NCBI GenBank assembly: GCA_028706475.1
Contig: JAQWBI010000001.1
Location: 62,001 to 126,000, forward strand
Source of the DNA: Candidatus Cloacimonadota bacterium
GTDB taxonomy: Bacteria; Cloacimonadota; Cloacimonadia; Cloacimonadales; Cloacimonadaceae
Direction: 5' to 3'
Length of the DNA stretch: 64,000 nucleotides
The notes under the pieces are model-generated. The model saw only the letters and a program-made list of their open reading frames with translations. It searched no databases and was not told where the DNA came from. The position numbers were made by a program, and so were the translations under genes. Within the stretch, counting starts at the first letter, position 1; each line of letters starts with the position of its first letter. Shown in pieces: positions 12,646 through 21,911 of this stretch.

Positions 12646-13917
12646 ATGCATTATCCAATAAAAGCACTTAGAATAGCTGTTCTTCTGCTATCACTGTCCT
12701 TATTGGTACAAGCTTTATGCGCTGAAATTCTGATCCCGATGGATAGCAGACAGAGCAACCACCTCAAGGCTTATGGCGTGGCCTTTGAAGCCTTAAAGGA
12801 GCAGATGACCGTGAAATGGCTACTGAACTACCGTGGCGGCAGTTTCCTACTCCAAAGCGCTCCGGAAATCATCGCTATCTGCAACATCCGCGGGGTGCGT
12901 TTTGAAAGCATCTCTTCTGCTGAAGTAGCCGCTATCTATCAAGAGATTCAGGAAGCCAACATGGAAGCCGTAACTCTGGAGAAAGAGCCCAAAATAGCAG
13001 TGTATATTCCCCCCAACACTCTACCTTGGGACGATGCGGTGAGCATGGCCCTGGAATATGCTGAGATCGATTATGACCGGCTTTGGGACGACGAGGTTCT
13101 CAGCGGTAAATTGGCTGATTACGATTGGCTGCATCTGCATCACGAGGATTTCACCGGACAATATGGCAAGTTCTATAGCTCCTATCGCCACACGGAGTGG
13201 TATCAGACCGATGTGCGTGTAAACGAAGCAATGGCAGCCAAACACGGATATCGTAAGGTATGGCAGTTGAAGCACGACATCGCCATGAAAATAAGGGAAT
13301 TTGTGACCTCAGGTGGTTTTCTTTTTGCCATGTGCGGAGCGGTAGATACCATCGACATCGCATTGGCCGCCAGAGGGATAGACGTGGTGGATGTGCTTAT
13401 CGACGGCGACGGCATCGAGGCAGATTACCTGGATCGTTTGGATTATGAGCGCTGCTTTGCCTTTGAAGGCTTCAAGTTGAAAACAAGCCCCTTTGAGTAT
13501 GAGTTTTCCGACATCGATGCCAGCGACTACAGCAAGCTACGTGGCGCTGAAGGCGACTATTTTCAGCTCTTCGATTTCTCTGCCAAATACGATCCCGTGC
13601 CCACCATGCTCACTCAAAATCACAGCAACATCATCGACGGCTTTATGGGTCAGACCACCTCTTTCTTCCGTGATAAAGTGAAGAAAAACGTAATAATTCT
13701 GGCTGAAGTACCGCAGCAAAACGATGTAAAGTACATTCACGGCAATCTGGGAAAAGGCACTTTCACCTTTTATGGCGGTCATGATCCCGAAGACTATCAG
13801 CACATGGTAGGGGATCCAGAGACCATACTGGATCTGCACAAGAACTCTCCGGGATACCGGTTGATCCTGAACAACATACTCTTCCCGGCAGCAGAGAAGA
13901 AAAAACTGAAAACATAA
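12646..13917 (+). CDS. Secreted protein of the mis-named 'asparagine synthetase B' family, amidotransferase-like
   Basis: Exported protein of 423 residues with a clear signal peptide (ALRIAVLLLSLSLLVQALCA). Many FCB genomes carry relatives labelled 'asparagine synthetase B', but the N-terminal nucleophile Cys and the synthetase domain are not visible, so I do not support that function. It contains LHLHHEDFTGQYGKFY and, further on, GGFLFAMCGAVDTIDIALAA, which resembles the nucleophile-elbow region of class I glutamine amidotransferase-like folds (Cys in AMCGA). Function unknown. I start at the ATG at 12646; AGGAG lies about 13 bases upstream, a little far. The MlaD-like gene follows 13 bases after the stop. 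Confidence 0.7.
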   Translation: MHYPIKALRIAVLLLSLSLLVQALCAEILIPMDSRQSNHLKAYGVAFEALKEQMTVKWLLNYRGGSFLLQSAPEIIAICNIRGVRFESISSAEVAAIYQEIQEANMEAVTLEKEPKIAVYIPPNTLPWDDAVSMALEYAEIDYDRLWDDEVLSGKLADYDWLHLHHEDFTGQYGKFYSSYRHTEWYQTDVRVNEAMAAKHGYRKVWQLKHDIAMKIREFVTSGGFLFAMCGAVDTIDIALAARGIDVVDVLIDGDGIEADYLDRLDYERCFAFEGFKLKTSPFEYEFSDIDASDYSKLRGAEGDYFQLFDFSAKYDPVPTMLTQNHSNIIDGFMGQTTSFFRDKVKKNVIILAEVPQQNDVKYIHGNLGKGTFTFYGGHDPEDYQHMVGDPETILDLHKNSPGYRLILNNILFPAAEKKKLKT

Positions 13918-13930
13918 AGAAGGCGGCTCT

Positions 13931-14830
13931 GTGGCAAAGTTTTATCAGCACTTACGCAGCACACGCATTAAAACCGGCGTCTGGACCGTGATAATCTTAT
14001 TGATCCTGCTGTTTGGCTATTTATGGCTTTCAAACCGAATCACCATGAAGAAGCAACAGGTACTGCAGGTAGTATTTACGGATGTGATGGGATTGGAAAC
14101 CGGAGATAAAATAATGTTCCGCGGGATGGAAGCAGGCAGAGTGAAGAGTGTGCAATTGCACAAGGACGGCATCTTGGTAAGCGGCAAGATCGACAGGGAT
14201 ATCCGCATCCCTGCCGGCAGCCGGTTTTACATCGAAGACAGTCTGATGGGCAGCAAAAGCATGAATATTATGCCGGTGAACTCCGATAAATACTTGGATC
14301 TGGCATACCAACAACGTGGTGAAAAATCCATCAGCCTGATGTCCATGATTACCCAAGCAGGGCATATGCTGAGTAAACTGGATAAGATCATGGCAGACAT
14401 AGATTCCGATGGCGGACTGCTGGATCTGGGACAATCCCTTGTCCGCAATGCCGACGGTACCGTGAGAAGTGCCAAACACAGCATTGAAGAGCTGAAAACA
14501 GAGCTTTCCGGAGTAATCGGCAAAGTGGACAGCCTCACCTGGCAGGCAAACAGACTGGTATCCGAAAGCAGTGAACCTCTGCAAAACACTCTGGCCATGG
14601 CCCCGGAAACCATGGGTAAAGTAAACAGCACTCTGGATAGTCTGCGCGTGCTTTCTGCAAATCTGAACCGTCAGGCAAAAGCGTTATCCGAGGGCAGTGG
14701 CAGTGCCGGTAAACTGCTAAGCGAAGATGATCTTTATAACAAACTGATGCAATCCATCCAGAGTTTGGATGAACTGATCGGTGACATCAAGAAGAATCCC
14801 CGTAAATACATCAAATTCTCATTGTTTTAG
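13931..14830 (+). CDS. MCE-domain protein, MlaD-like lipid transport component
   Basis: Membrane-anchored MCE protein of 299 residues. A single helix (about 17-34) is followed by one MCE domain (VLQVVFTDVMGLETGDKIMF and RGMEAGRVKSVQL), then a long helical tail rich in Ser, Leu and Lys. MlaD forms hexameric rings that carry phospholipids between the inner and outer membranes with an MlaFE-type ABC transporter. No ABC ATPase or MlaE permease gene lies beside it; those must be elsewhere. The start is GTG, preceded by GAAGG. The neighbouring Omp85-like gene is seven bases downstream, which suggests joint work at the cell envelope. Confidence 0.82.
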   Translation: MAKFYQHLRSTRIKTGVWTVIILLILLFGYLWLSNRITMKKQQVLQVVFTDVMGLETGDKIMFRGMEAGRVKSVQLHKDGILVSGKIDRDIRIPAGSRFYIEDSLMGSKSMNIMPVNSDKYLDLAYQQRGEKSISLMSMITQAGHMLSKLDKIMADIDSDGGLLDLGQSLVRNADGTVRSAKHSIEELKTELSGVIGKVDSLTWQANRLVSESSEPLQNTLAMAPETMGKVNSTLDSLRVLSANLNRQAKALSEGSGSAGKLLSEDDLYNKLMQSIQSLDELIGDIKKNPRKYIKFSLF

Positions 14831-14837
14831 GAATTAT

Positions 14838-17800
14838 ATGAAAAAGCCACTTTTTGTGTTGATCCTCCTTTCGTGGGTTCTGCTGCAGGCAGTGAACTTC
14901 GGTCAGAACAAGGTTAATGCCGTCCCGCAGGATTGGGCTGTGCTGAAAACCATGCACTTCGACATCTATTTTCCCAAGAATGAGGATGATTTCGGCAAGA
15001 CTGCAGCTTTGATGGCGGAAGATATCTATTATTACCTGAAAGCGGATCTGAAGTATCCGGTATTAACCAGAATCCCCATAGTGTTTTACAGCACAAAGAG
15101 CGATTTTCAAGTTACAAACATCATCTATCCCCTGCTAACCGAAGGTGTGGGCGGATTCACAGAAAGCCTCAGAAACCGCGTGGTGGTGCCTTTTGACGGC
15201 AGCTACAGCAATCTGGAAGAACTACTGGCACACGAGCTGACCCATGCCTATATAAACGCTCTGGACAAACGGATTACAAACACACTGGATTCTCTGAGAC
15301 CCAGCTCTTTCCCATTCTGGTTTTCTGAGGGATTGCCGGAGTTTCTCTCCATCGGCGGCGAGGATGAATACAACAACATGTTCATCCTGGATATGGTGGT
15401 AAACGACAATCTTCCCCGTTTGGATAATATCGATGGCTATCTTGCCTACCGCCTCGGAGAAAGCTTTATCACATATATAGCAGATACTTACGGCAGAGAA
15501 AAGGTAAGTGAATACTTCTACTCGCTAAGGACCATGAACGACACGGAAGAGGCCACCAAACGTGTATTCGGTGTCAAGTTTGCGGACTTGCAATCGCGCT
15601 GGAAGTTTCAATTGAAGCGTGATTACTATCCTTTGATAACCAAGCACAAGATCCCTGTAGAAGAGTATGAAAAGCGCACCAAGAGCAAGGAAGAAGGCTC
15701 TTACTTCAATTTCTCTCCGCGTTTCAGCCCCGATGGCAGCCGCTACGCTTATTTCTCCGATGCCGGTGCCAGATACAGCATTTGGGTGGCAGGAACCCAC
15801 GGATTCGCCAGTCCACGCAAATTGATAACCGGTGAACGCAACGGTAAGATGGAAGAATTTTACTATATGCGCACAAATCTCAGCTGGTTCCCGGACGGCA
15901 AACATCTGGCCTTCAATACCAAAACTGCGAGTGGTGACCGCATTCACATCCTGGATGCAGATAATGGCAAGATCACCAGCACGATAGAGATCCCCGAACT
16001 GCGCGCGATCTTTGAACTGGATGTAGCTCCGGATGGGCAAAGTATTGTACTCAGCGGCCAGCACAATATGCAGACCGATATCTTTGTCTATAACATCAAA
16101 AGCAAGCAATTGCACCGGCTTACGAACGACAGTTTTTTCGATACTCAGCCCCGCTTCAGCCCGGATGGCAGCAAAGTAGTCTTCAGCTCTCAGCGGGATG
16201 AGATACCAGAGTCCCGCCGCTACGGCTTTTTCGCCAACTACAGCTCCGATATCTTTGAATACCACTTGGACAACGATCAACTGCTCCAGATCACCAGCCT
16301 GCCCTTCAACTGCAGTCAACCCTTTTACAGCGACGGAGGAAACAAACTGGTCTTTGTTTCCGCTCGCAACGACATCACAAATCTGGAAATAATCGATCTA
16401 AATACCATGCAAATTGCAACACTTAGCAATGTGCTTTCCGGAGTCTATGGTGCGGATATCTCCGCCGACGGAAATTACATGCTGATGTCAAACTACTTTA
16501 ATGGTGCCTGGGATATCTATTTTGAGAGCGGATTGCCGGAGGACCTCGAATACTCGGACTTTCCAGCGCCAAAGCTCTATGATAAAGATCATGACTTGCT
16601 GGACCGCATAGATTTTAATGAACTGGACAAATACGGCCTGCGGGACAAAGTAAAGATCCCCCGCAATTCCAAACCACACCAGAATACAGACTCCCGGCGT
16701 CCCTTTATAAGCGGATACGAGCCCGTGATTCCGGATAGTAGCCTGATCTCCACAAATTTCTCTTGGGATGAGCGTCCTGAAGAAACTCATAGCAATCCCC
16801 CAGAAATCAAGAACTACAGACCCAAATTCGCTTTGGATACCTTTTGGGGCGGAGTGGCATACAGTTCCAGCTATGGCGCTTTCGGCAATGTGGAATTGGG
16901 TCTTAGCGATCTGATGGGCGATCATGGTATCGGCATCAGTATCGGGATTGCCGATAAACTGGAGAATACCAATCTCGTACTTTCATACCTGTATCTGAAA
17001 CAGAGATTGGATTATGGCATAGGAGTTTACAACCTCTACGACGAGGCCTACTACCGTTACATCATGCCCCAGGGAGATCAATACTATCGCTTGCGTCAAA
17101 GACAAACCGGTATATACACTCTGCTGCGCTATCCCTTCAGCCGCTTTTCCCGCATCGAACTGGAAAACATGCTGTTCGAATATGATACACACTGGGACAA
17201 ACTCATCAGCCTGGACATCTCCGGTGAAGACTGGGAAAACGATGTGGACAAAGCCAATACCCTCGCTTATGCACCTGGAATAAACCTGGTTTACGACAAC
17301 GCACTGTATGGTGCCACCGGGCCGCTATTGGGCTTCAAAGGTATCTACAGCATCAGCAAGAGCTTTGCCCAGAAAGATATCAATTACTTCACAAACTATG
17401 TGGATCTGCGTAGCTACACTCTCTTTAGCCGCAGATACTCACTTGCTTTGCGCTTAAATGCTGGTATCAGCACCGGCGACGATCCTGATTATTTTACTCT
17501 GGGCGGATACTATGGCGTACGTGCGCTGGATTACAATCTGGCAGACCGCAAAAAGGCATTGGCCACCGTGGAATTACGCTTCCCGCTTGTTGATTATCTG
17601 GCCATGGCATTTCCCTTGCCCATCACTTTGGGCAATATCCGCGGTTCCGCCTATGTAGATACTGGTGCGGTGTGGGATAAAGACAAGCATTTCCGGGGAG
17701 TCATCGACGGCAAACTGGAAGACATCAAGCTTGGTTACGGTTTTGGCCCCAGATTCAATCTCGGATATTTTGTACTGAAGATGGATGTTGCTTGGCTTAC

Positions 17801-17858
17801 GGATTTCTCCCACATCAGCAAGCCTCAGATCTACCTCAGCCTTTCGGAAGACTTTTAA
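14838..17858 (+). CDS. Secreted zinc-peptidase-like domain + beta-propeller + outer-membrane barrel fusion
   Basis: Protein of 1006 residues with three parts. After a signal peptide (about 1-22) comes a peptidase-MA-like domain with HELTH at 132-136 (zinc HExxH) and FWFSEGLPEFLS with a candidate third ligand Glu. Around 280-600 are repeated blades of the TolB/DPP type (FSPDGSRYAYFSD, FSPDGSKVVFSSQ, SADGNYMLMSN). From about 690 to the end is an Omp85/surface-antigen barrel (GGYYGVRALDY, GSAYVDTGAVW, GPRFNLGYFVLKMDVAW) ending in Phe, as expected for a BAM substrate. So the protease and propeller probably face the periplasm or surface from an outer-membrane anchor. Substrate unknown. Confidence 0.8.
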   Translation: MKKPLFVLILLSWVLLQAVNFGQNKVNAVPQDWAVLKTMHFDIYFPKNEDDFGKTAALMAEDIYYYLKADLKYPVLTRIPIVFYSTKSDFQVTNIIYPLLTEGVGGFTESLRNRVVVPFDGSYSNLEELLAHELTHAYINALDKRITNTLDSLRPSSFPFWFSEGLPEFLSIGGEDEYNNMFILDMVVNDNLPRLDNIDGYLAYRLGESFITYIADTYGREKVSEYFYSLRTMNDTEEATKRVFGVKFADLQSRWKFQLKRDYYPLITKHKIPVEEYEKRTKSKEEGSYFNFSPRFSPDGSRYAYFSDAGARYSIWVAGTHGFASPRKLITGERNGKMEEFYYMRTNLSWFPDGKHLAFNTKTASGDRIHILDADNGKITSTIEIPELRAIFELDVAPDGQSIVLSGQHNMQTDIFVYNIKSKQLHRLTNDSFFDTQPRFSPDGSKVVFSSQRDEIPESRRYGFFANYSSDIFEYHLDNDQLLQITSLPFNCSQPFYSDGGNKLVFVSARNDITNLEIIDLNTMQIATLSNVLSGVYGADISADGNYMLMSNYFNGAWDIYFESGLPEDLEYSDFPAPKLYDKDHDLLDRIDFNELDKYGLRDKVKIPRNSKPHQNTDSRRPFISGYEPVIPDSSLISTNFSWDERPEETHSNPPEIKNYRPKFALDTFWGGVAYSSSYGAFGNVELGLSDLMGDHGIGISIGIADKLENTNLVLSYLYLKQRLDYGIGVYNLYDEAYYRYIMPQGDQYYRLRQRQTGIYTLLRYPFSRFSRIELENMLFEYDTHWDKLISLDISGEDWENDVDKANTLAYAPGINLVYDNALYGATGPLLGFKGIYSISKSFAQKDINYFTNYVDLRSYTLFSRRYSLALRLNAGISTGDDPDYFTLGGYYGVRALDYNLADRKKALATVELRFPLVDYLAMAFPLPITLGNIRGSAYVDTGAVWDKDKHFRGVIDGKLEDIKLGYGFGPRFNLGYFVLKMDVAWLTDFSHISKPQIYLSLSEDF

Positions 17859-19430: not shown

Positions 19431-20363
19431 ATGAAAAAAGCAGCCTATTTCCTAATCCTCTTGCTATTTATCCTGGGTGCCTGCAAAGCTCCCATCGATC
19501 AAAAAAAGACAGAGACCAAGCCTTTGATCCTTACATCCATCTATCCCTACGAATTGCTGCTAAAGCAAATGGTGGGTGATGCTGTCGAAGTGAGAAGCAT
19601 GATCCCGCCCAATGCCTCGGTGCATTCCTTCAGCCCTCAGCCTTCTCATCTGAAAGACCTTCACAAAGCTGAACTGATCGTGATCAACGGCATGGGACTG
19701 GAAGAGATGATGAAACAAAGCCTGGACAAAGCTTCCGATAAACTGCTCGACTGTTCTTTATTACTCAGCGATTTGATCGCCTTGGATTCTCTGCAGCAAG
19801 TGCGTGAACAACTGATGCATCAACACAACCACGACGGGGAGCATCACCATGATCATCTGGCTACAGACCCTCATCTCTGGACATCACCGCAGATGATGAT
19901 GAAGCTCAGTACAAAGCTAAAAACAGAGCTTTGTTCCCGCTTCACCGATTTTGTGCCGCTAATCAATCACAATTACGATGAAATCTTCCGCGAACTGAGC
20001 GCAGCTGATGAACTGATCAGAACCGAGCGCAAAACATACAACGAGCCTGCCTTGATTACATATCACAATAGCTTCCATTACTTCTGCCGCGATTACGATA
20101 TCCGGTATCTGGGCTGGGTGCAAAGCTCACCGGGCAAAGAACCCTCTCCTCGCGAACTGCTTGAACTGGGCACAAAGATCCGCAACCACGGTGTGCGCCG
20201 CATATTTGTGGAGCCCCAACAGGATCCCAAATCCGCAGAAGTTTTAGCCAAAGAATACAAGCTGCAGATCGGCACGCTGGATCCCATCGGTAGCACTTTC
20301 GAGGCTACCACCATCACAGAACTGATCCTGAAAAATTGGGATGCCATGAAACAGGCATTCTGA
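19431..20363 (+). CDS. znuA: Zinc/manganese ABC transporter, substrate-binding lipoprotein
   Basis: Cluster A-I binding protein of 310 residues that captures Zn(II) or Mn(II) in the periplasm. Lipoprotein signal with Cys18 (FILGAC). The metal His set includes SVHSFSPQPSHL, DPHLWTSP and YHNSFHYF. A His/Asp-rich loop at 130-142 (HQHNHDGEHHHDH) is the usual mark of Zn-specific ZnuA proteins, so I favour zinc. AAGGAG precedes the ATG. ATPase and permease genes follow directly. No Fur/Zur-like gene is in view. Confidence 0.92.
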   Translation: MKKAAYFLILLLFILGACKAPIDQKKTETKPLILTSIYPYELLLKQMVGDAVEVRSMIPPNASVHSFSPQPSHLKDLHKAELIVINGMGLEEMMKQSLDKASDKLLDCSLLLSDLIALDSLQQVREQLMHQHNHDGEHHHDHLATDPHLWTSPQMMMKLSTKLKTELCSRFTDFVPLINHNYDEIFRELSAADELIRTERKTYNEPALITYHNSFHYFCRDYDIRYLGWVQSSPGKEPSPRELLELGTKIRNHGVRRIFVEPQQDPKSAEVLAKEYKLQIGTLDPIGSTFEATTITELILKNWDAMKQAF

Positions 20364-20394
20364 TGAGCCATCCTATAGTATCCAAGAGCTATAC

Positions 20395-21123
20395 ATGATC
20401 CAAGTAAGCGACCTGCAGTTCAGCCTCGGCGGCAAAAGCATTCTGGAAGACATCAATCTCCAAATCCCGGATGGAGTATTCGCCGCCATCATCGGCCCCA
20501 ACGGAGCCGGAAAATCCACCCTCATCAAACTGATTCTAGGCTTGTTGGATATCCAGGAAGGCAGCATCAGCATAGACGGTATCCCCAGAGATAACTGGCT
20601 GAAAAACAATGGCTTCGGCTATCTACCTCAACGCGAAGAATACGACCGCAGCTTTCCCGCTACCGCTCTGGACATCTCTCTGATGGGCATTGCTGGAACC
20701 TTGGGATGGGGCAGGAGATGCGGCAAAGAACACAAGCAAAAAGCAATGGATGCCATGCGGCAATGCGGCATCGATACAAAAGCCTCTTCCCGGATCGGAA
20801 GCCTCAGCGGAGGCGAATTCCAACGTGTATTACTATCCCGCGCAATACTTTCCGATAGTAAGTACCTCATCCTGGACGAACCTGAAGCCGGTATAGACCG
20901 CAGTGGCGTAAGCAGTTTTTTTGAACTGCTGAAAAAGCTAAATGATAGCGGCAAGACCGTGATAACCATCTCTCACGACCTGCATACGCTCAGCGAATAT
21001 TGCAACTACCTGATCTGCCTGAATCACCGTCTGCACTACCACAATCACTCTGAACTGGTGAATGCGGAAATCATCCACAAAACCTTTGGCGACACTGTGC
21101 GCCTGATAGAAAAGGACTATTGA
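20395..21123 (+). CDS. znuC: Zinc/manganese ABC transporter, ATPase
   Basis: ABC ATPase of 242 residues that powers the ZnuB permease from the cytoplasmic face. Seen: Walker A GPNGAGKSTL near residues 36-45, Q-loop YLPQREEYD, signature LSGGEFQRV, Walker B YLILDEPEAGID, and the switch His in TISHDLH. Its stop overlaps the start of the permease gene (TGATG), so the two are translationally coupled. Confidence 0.94.
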   Translation: MIQVSDLQFSLGGKSILEDINLQIPDGVFAAIIGPNGAGKSTLIKLILGLLDIQEGSISIDGIPRDNWLKNNGFGYLPQREEYDRSFPATALDISLMGIAGTLGWGRRCGKEHKQKAMDAMRQCGIDTKASSRIGSLSGGEFQRVLLSRAILSDSKYLILDEPEAGIDRSGVSSFFELLKKLNDSGKTVITISHDLHTLSEYCNYLICLNHRLHYHNHSELVNAEIIHKTFGDTVRLIEKDY

Positions 21124-21911
21124 TGCCGGGATTTCTCTTGAATGCGCTCTTCGGAGCTTTACTGAGCGGTATATCCCTTGCGGTCTTTGCTCCCTATGTT
21201 ACACTGCGCCGTATCTCATATCTGGGAGAAGCATTATCCCACATAGCTTTTGCCGGCATTGCCATCGCCATCATCACCGGCATAAACCTCAGTCTGGGAG
21301 CCTTGATCTTTGTGTGTGCCGTTGCTCTGGGAATCTCTTGGTTGTCAAAACAGCATAAGATCCAGGAAGCCAATACCATCACCATCTTTCTTTCCCTCTC
21401 CATGGCCTTGGGTATCATTCTGATCTCTCTTTCCCGAAATTATACCTTCGACCTCTCCAGCTACCTCTTTGGGAATGTTCTGCTCATATCCGGCAATGAA
21501 CTGTGGGCGCTGGGCATCCTGAATATTCTGAATATCGCTTTTGTGATGTTCTTTTACAAAGAATTGTTTTACCTTAGCTACAATGCGGAAATGTCTGGTG
21601 TGTTTCGCATCCGCACGGATGCTGTGGACAAAGTGTTTTATCTGCTATTGGCGGCAAATATCGTCTTCAACTTAAAAAGTGCCGGCATCATCCTAGTAAC
21701 CGCACAATTGATCCTGCCCGCCGTGATCGCCTTCAATTTGGTACAAAGACTGCACACAGCCATCATCACTGCTGTGATTGTAGCCATTATCTCCGCTCTC
21801 GGAGGTTTTGCCTTGTCCTTTGCTTTAAATCTTCCCACCGGCGCCACGATAGTTGTATGTCAAGCACTATTATATGCCGCCAGCTTTATTATCAGAAGGA
21901 GAAGAACCTAA
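21123..21911 (+). CDS. znuB: Zinc/manganese ABC transporter, permease
   Basis: ABC-3 family permease of 262 residues with seven or more membrane helices. LGEALSHIAFAGIA near 35 is the conserved region after the second helix. Other landmarks are ISLSRNYTFDLSSYLFGN and the late LILPAVIAFNLV segment. It forms the membrane channel for the metal delivered by ZnuA. The ATG shares its A with the TGA of znuC. A gene of unrelated type follows three bases after the stop. Confidence 0.92.
   Translation: MPGFLLNALFGALLSGISLAVFAPYVTLRRISYLGEALSHIAFAGIAIAIITGINLSLGALIFVCAVALGISWLSKQHKIQEANTITIFLSLSMALGIILISLSRNYTFDLSSYLFGNVLLISGNELWALGILNILNIAFVMFFYKELFYLSYNAEMSGVFRIRTDAVDKVFYLLLAANIVFNLKSAGIILVTAQLILPAVIAFNLVQRLHTAIITAVIVAIISALGGFALSFALNLPTGATIVVCQALLYAASFIIRRRRT

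Follow-up and report, generated by a model that had tools for sequence, protein, structure and literature searches.

A peptidase-propeller-Omp85 barrel protein of Cloacimonadota as a candidate outer-membrane partner of an Mla-type lipid transporter

Which outer-membrane protein might pass lipids to or from the outer membrane in bacteria that have neither MlaA nor a barrel-bearing MlaD? MlaA, a lipoprotein that itself has no barrel, was found in none of 124 genomes of Cloacimonadota, a phylum placed near the FCB group, by a search that was positive in E. coli and Caulobacter. In the six-part Mla system of E. coli, MlaA forms the outer-membrane end of the MlaEFD transporter, the same role that is proposed here for a different protein. 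A system without MlaA and MlaC is described for Veillonella parvula, where the MCE protein, long MlaD, is coupled to an outer-membrane barrel; passages of that study place MlaABC mostly in Proteobacteria and describe the MlaD of the FCB group as having no barrel, and Cloacimonadota are not named in it (PMC10665443). The question is raised by a locus in a 64,000-nucleotide stretch of Cloacimonadota DNA, the window, in which an mlaD-like gene is followed by a gene that fuses a peptidase domain, a propeller and an Omp85-type barrel (Table 1). As a near-universal Omp85 protein, its product is a testable candidate for such a lipid route, and if the proposal is true, the functions of Omp85 proteins would be extended by lipid traffic and by a built-in protease.

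Table 1. Features of the fused gene and its upstream neighbours (positions in the window)
Feature	Position	Strand	Description
HLKAYG protein gene	12646..13917	+	directly before mlaD; start codon chosen by eye, longest ORF from 12598
mlaD-like gene	13931..14830	+	299 aa, one MCE domain at residues 44-115
Fused peptidase-propeller-barrel gene	14838..17858	+	1006 aa; ORF, Pfam, conservation
Likely signal peptide	14838..14897	+	hydrophobic; sequence and alignment; cleavage site putative
Peptidase_MA-type domain	14925..15647	+	Pfam match at residues 79-259; outer limits approximate
HELTH (H132, E133, H136)	15231..15245	+	kept in all 100 rows (98 distinct)
E164, likely third zinc ligand	15327..15329	+	invariant in 100 rows; 28 residues past H136
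E168	15339-15341	+	likewise invariant in 100 rows
TolB-like beta-propeller	15663..16544	+	residues 276-569; Pfam, AlphaFold2, Foldseek, structural aligner
Omp85-type beta-barrel	16881..17855	+	residues 682-1006, C-terminal Phe; Pfam, model, profile

Architecture, conservation and distribution of the fused protein

The gene is a single ORF that begins at the ATG at 14838, with AGGA at 14829-14832 on its 5' side, and ends with the stop codon at 17856-17858. The original prediction, one exported chain with a zinc-peptidase-like domain, a propeller and an Omp85 barrel, is borne out by Pfam and by a structure model of modest quality. Pfam matches the protein to Peptidase_MA_2 (32.7 bits, barely above the cut-off of 32.4), to PD40 (57.3 bits, cut-off 20.9) and to Omp85 (PF01103, residues 747-1006, 39.9 bits, cut-off 24), and by its C-terminal barrel profile the protein is a member of the Omp85 superfamily. 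In an alignment of 44 Cloacimonadota members, one of them from the window, PD40 and Peptidase_MA_2 were found in all 44 and Omp85 in 31 (E<=0.01). In a separate set of peptidase-domain rows, PF13485 was matched by 15 of 15. No POTRA domain appeared among the Pfam and NCBIfam matches of the fused protein or the Pfam matches of the 44 members, and PF04333, the MlaA domain, had no Pfam match in the fused protein. The NCBIfam score for the TolB family stayed under the cut-off (101.2 bits vs 343.15), and the kinship with TolB is one of propeller fold only; the NCBIfam match to TamL was weak (1.3e-6, far below cut-off).

AlphaFold2, run on 12 sequences, gave a model with a mean pLDDT of 64 and a pTM of 0.54, in which the propeller is the confident region. 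The barrel, for which modelling had been suggested as a check, came out with 15 strands in residues 682-1004, at a lower confidence than the propeller (pLDDT about 60); Omp85 barrels are characterised by 16 strands and a lateral seam. Foldseek searches with the model returned TolB (1.3e-12) and the BamA barrel (6qgw, 1.5e-8), and a structural aligner matched TolB chains with a Z of about 25 across roughly residues 276-569, the propeller being the domain to which the likeness to TolB is limited; a second comparison with VIA-align listed propeller matches, which do not count against the barrel. When 14 barrel sequences, drawn from Cloacimonadota and other phyla, were combined into a profile, it matched the solved POTRA/barrel protein 9ccg over the whole barrel (6.5e-10) and BamA at 4e-5.

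Conservation was read from an alignment of 100 rows, 98 of them distinct and 56 from outside Cloacimonadota. Behind the signal peptide lies the motif F-G-x-N-K-V, with G22 in 100/100 rows and N24 in 99/100. By analogy with known zinc peptidases, H132 and H136 would be two zinc ligands and E133 the general base. The third ligand had been left to be found, and its absence from all relatives would have counted against the original prediction; at the level of sequence the candidate is E164, which is kept in every row. In collagenase gluzincins, 28 residues likewise separate the second His from the third ligand, and the gluzincin-type site, with HExxH and a downstream Glu both present, appears intact. 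W161 is also found in 100/100 aligned rows. A profile of the peptidase domain gave one weak match to a solved structure, a bacterial collagenase (E 0.015), in which the W-S-E-G segment aligns with the E164 region; over the HExxH stretch the alignment is not clean. In the barrel, R895, E912, R914, G936, G968, G970 and R972 are invariant in the 100 rows and the C-terminal residue is aromatic in 96/100. Loop 6 of Omp85 proteins carries a V-R-G motif with a conserved Arg; this Arg is present in 100/100 rows, and in the 99 non-window rows the residue after it is Gly (86 rows) or Ala (13 rows).

In Cloacimonadota the fused gene is near-universal. It was found at E<=1e-30 in 116/124 genomes, and a match at E<=0.001 in 120/124, including all 70 counted as good quality; the 120 include weak matches in G009, G040, G095 and G117, which are probably other propellers, and of which G040 is of about good genome quality. 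With other phyla included, the profile matched in 273/289 genomes, many of these matches being to a propeller only. Matches below 1e-200 outside Cloacimonadota came from 19 genomes, each of a different family, and in a second phylum (that of G278) all 39 of 39 genomes match. Chance can be excluded as the source of the architecture, since it is kept across the phylum and other phyla, too, yield full-length matches. G096 encodes a second copy (L074:2015-5176), full-length and distant, with 29% identity to the window protein; it keeps the peptidase residues, and no mlaD was found beside it.

The pairing of a propeller with an Omp85 barrel is already known: the WD40-Omp85 subfamily of the Omp85/TpsB superfamily, described in 2014, joins a TolB-like propeller to an Omp85 barrel as the fused protein does, the word 'peptidase' is absent from the main text of that study, its 'Metallo' subfamily uses PF00149, and its passages on WD40-Omp85 name no Mla link (PMC4104836). 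A Mla/MCE link of the fused protein was not found in the literature searched, most subscription papers and bioRxiv lying outside its scope, and the term 'peptidase MA' was not found among the matches listed.

Gene neighbourhoods, transporter trees and co-occurrence

In the window, the stop codon of the mlaD-like gene ends 7 bp before the ATG of the fused gene, and its product matches MlaD (PF02470) with 47 bits against a Pfam cut-off of 25.1. Linkage was surveyed in 98 of the 124 Cloacimonadota genomes, 94 of them with a readable upstream side (unreadable in G042, G071, G075 and G120). An mlaD gene immediately precedes the fused gene, in the same orientation, in 87/94, at a median gap of 11 bp, and no adjacent mlaD was seen in the other seven (G091, G102, G103, G105, G106, G116, G118). 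A MlaF-like ATPase gene stands before mlaD in at least 32 genomes. In at least 41 the gene before mlaD is that of HLKAYG, the arrangement seen in the window. Short loci are frequent and make both counts minimum values. A short MlaE is encoded next to a dnaB-like gene (named by eye) with no ATPase beside it in the ten loci read (L203:5932-6720, L204-L212), and a second MCE system in the phylum has its own long MlaE and its own MlaD.

In the second phylum a different gene of this kind adjoins the fused gene. Coordinate comparison placed mlaE directly downstream in 20/39 genomes, distributed by family as 6/6 (f170), 2/2 (f172), 1/1 (f173), 1/1 (f174) and 10/11 (f165), and it is absent from this position in f169 (0/9), f171 (0/7) and f20 (0/2); f169 has the fused gene, but its MlaE frames belong to the second, long type. 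Of the 19 loci read, 18 have a MlaF-like ATPase after mlaE; G321 is the unread twentieth. In G324 the stretch from mlaE to the contig end shows no mlaF, and the sole MlaD sits with the long MlaE. The 20 linked genomes have a single MlaE match in 17 cases and a single MlaD match, on another contig, in 17. Pfam confirmed the MlaE and MlaD identities on examples; for the ATPase, MlaF was the top NCBIfam match of one example and narrowly second to proV for another, both under cut-off. In G301 (L144:10319-11109) the mlaE after the fused gene is split into two adjoining frames, which is a broken gene or a sequencing error. Two second-phylum genomes encode stand-alone Omp85 barrels (L217:6296-7384, 363 aa; L215:7236-8348, 371 aa) that adjoin the sole MlaD or lie one gene after it, in 2/4 MlaD loci read.

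Mla linkage is observed in two phyla, with 87/94 and 20/39 genomes, but a rule of adjacency that covers every phylum was rejected: such adjacency was seen in 1/30 other-phylum loci (29 genomes, some contigs short), which had been taken regardless of Mla, and the one linked locus, L094, belongs to the second phylum. Among the same 30 loci, L111 has the HLKAYG gene two genes away on the opposite strand, and in L103 a TamB gene (L103:2633-6505; PF04357, 1.3e-33) lies directly upstream of the fused gene with an overlap of a few bases; with this TamB as the query, phmmer detected no other TamB-like ORF in the 30 loci, though a one-sequence scan can miss distant relatives.

Two trees relate the transporters of the two phyla. 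The MlaE tree holds 24 sequences (7 gene-adjacent from the second phylum, 10 short ones from Cloacimonadota and 7 others), of which the gene-adjacent and the short MlaE form one group (98/94) apart from the 7 others, with L221 as a long branch among the latter. The MlaD tree holds 25 (14 gene-adjacent from Cloacimonadota, the sole MlaD of four second-phylum genomes, 6 of the second system and L221); the 14 and the four form one group (96/97) apart from the 6, and the long-branched L221 stands next to it. Linked members supplied the profiles that collected these sequences, a choice that could favour the retrieval of their kin but does not create the clades. Since both the MlaE clade and the MlaD clade are common to the two phyla, different members of one orthologous transporter adjoin the fused gene in each.

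The gene that precedes mlaD encodes an exported-looking protein without a Pfam match, here named after its motif H-L-K-A-Y-G. It is highly conserved (mean column identity 71%, 9 rows, three phyla), and in three second-phylum loci its gene lies downstream of mlaF. Its model reached a pLDDT of 35 with 10 close sequences and no claim on the fold is based on it; our impression, and nothing firmer, is of a glutamine-amidotransferase-like protein, and relatives in Bacteroidota carry the label asparagine synthetase B.

For co-occurrence across phyla, 165 genomes (G124-G288) were divided at E<=1e-40 into 52 carriers and 113 non-carriers; E<=1e-100 leaves 40 carriers and the same picture, and several carriers match over peptidase and propeller only. 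HLKAYG was found in 35/52 carriers vs 7/113 non-carriers (Fisher 3e-16) and MlaA in 0/52 vs 19/113 (9e-4), p values that overstate the significance as species are non-independent, and the exclusion of MlaA among carriers is confounded by phylogeny. Co-occurrence with mlaD, proposed earlier as a check, is uninformative inside Cloacimonadota, where both genes are near-universal, and across phyla, where MlaE was used, there was no enrichment (45/52 carriers vs 90/113 non-carriers, p 0.39), so that MlaE co-occurrence was dropped as support for an Mla role. As seven of the 52 carriers are without MlaE, one of them, G124, being 59% complete, the fused protein cannot be solely an Mla part.

Proposed role and competing explanations

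Architecture, conservation and linkage can be read directly from the sequences, and the tie of the fused protein to Mla is one of gene order. The most economical account has it serve trans-envelope lipid carriers as their partner in the outer membrane and couples it, in two phyla, to one Mla-type transporter. That it is the outer-membrane partner of a single MCE/Mla-type lipid ABC transporter, made up of the short MlaE, MlaF and the MlaD with one MCE domain, we regard as having an even chance. Somewhat short of that stands the wider proposal that Cloacimonadota and related phyla have in it their missing outer-membrane Mla/MCE module: an Omp85 barrel, bearing a protease, would form a bridge with MlaD and an HLKAYG partner and replace MlaA or the barrel of long MlaD. 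Unlike in long MlaD, barrel and MCE domain are encoded by separate genes in Cloacimonadota, and the barrel is of the Omp85 type and comes with a peptidase and a propeller. Of the three roles that had been suggested for the protein, lipid traffic is the one favoured by genome context, that is by the linkage to mlaD/mlaF in one phylum and mlaE/mlaF in the other and by the trees.

For topology, docking, lipid passage and the protease substrate we infer a sequence of steps. The barrel would be inserted into the outer membrane by BAM, with the propeller and the peptidase hanging in the periplasm, where the tail of the MlaD ring could dock on them. Lipid would then move between the MlaD channel and an outer-membrane leaflet at the lateral seam of the barrel. 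The proposed substrate of the peptidase lies in the periplasm; cleavage might, for instance, remove partners that have jammed or assembled wrongly, or gate the bridge. Where this transporter is absent from a lineage, the fused protein may serve another trans-envelope bridge for lipids or assembly, such as TamB.

The gene order could also be due to shared regulation alone, which would hold neighbouring envelope genes together, and the main rival builds on this. Here the protein would be an assembly or quality-control factor on the BAM side, a BamA-BamB-like fusion whose protease degrades or trims stalled outer-membrane proteins. BepA, a zinc protease of family M48 that works in the periplasm, degrades such stalled proteins; it resembles the fused protein in its link to the outer membrane and in its use of zinc, but comes from another peptidase family and carries no barrel. 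In favour of this rival, the nearest solved barrels include that of BamA, all 100 rows keep the peptidase residues, some carriers have no MlaE, and a 2014 proposal, in passages on the WD40-Omp85 proteins, interprets these as BamA-BamB-like (PMC4104836). However, no POTRA was seen among the Pfam and NCBIfam matches and Mla genes recur beside the fused gene in two phyla and in different orders, and we consider this reading unlikely, if the strongest of the competitors. A considerably smaller probability is given to a TamA-like partner of TamB-type bridges for lipids or proteins, to which the Mla linkage would be secondary. Like TamA and TamL (for the latter, PMC12045153, in part), the fused protein has an Omp85 barrel that might serve a trans-envelope bridge; TamB adjoins one relative, the fused gene of L103 following it directly, and the weak TamL match points the same way. 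In contrast to TamA and TamL, the fused protein has an N-terminal peptidase and propeller and no POTRA was found in it, and the one-sequence phmmer scan returned no further TamB-like ORF from the 30 other-phylum loci.

An outer-membrane lipid partner also has to be weighed against functions at the cell surface and in peptide turnover. N-terminal domains of Omp85 proteins normally face the periplasm, and for this reason surface-protein maturation, another of the suggested roles, is disfavoured. A related reading likens the protein to PlpD, as a secretor that brings its own protease to the cell surface; an Omp85 barrel and a hydrolase domain do share one chain, but the propeller sits between peptidase and barrel, and near-universal conservation in the phylum fits housekeeping more than a surface weapon, which makes it the least probable reading of all. 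Peptide trimming together with the adjacent aminopeptidase, the remaining suggestion, found no support: the leucyl aminopeptidase gene was rejected as a partner as it is a lineage-specific neighbour, adjoining only in loci of family f1 and in 0/31 loci outside f1 (some contigs end early). After the aminopeptidase gene, the window (19431-21911) and likewise many f1 loci hold znuABC-like genes for a Zn/Mn-type ABC importer (named by eye), which possibly contribute to zinc supply.
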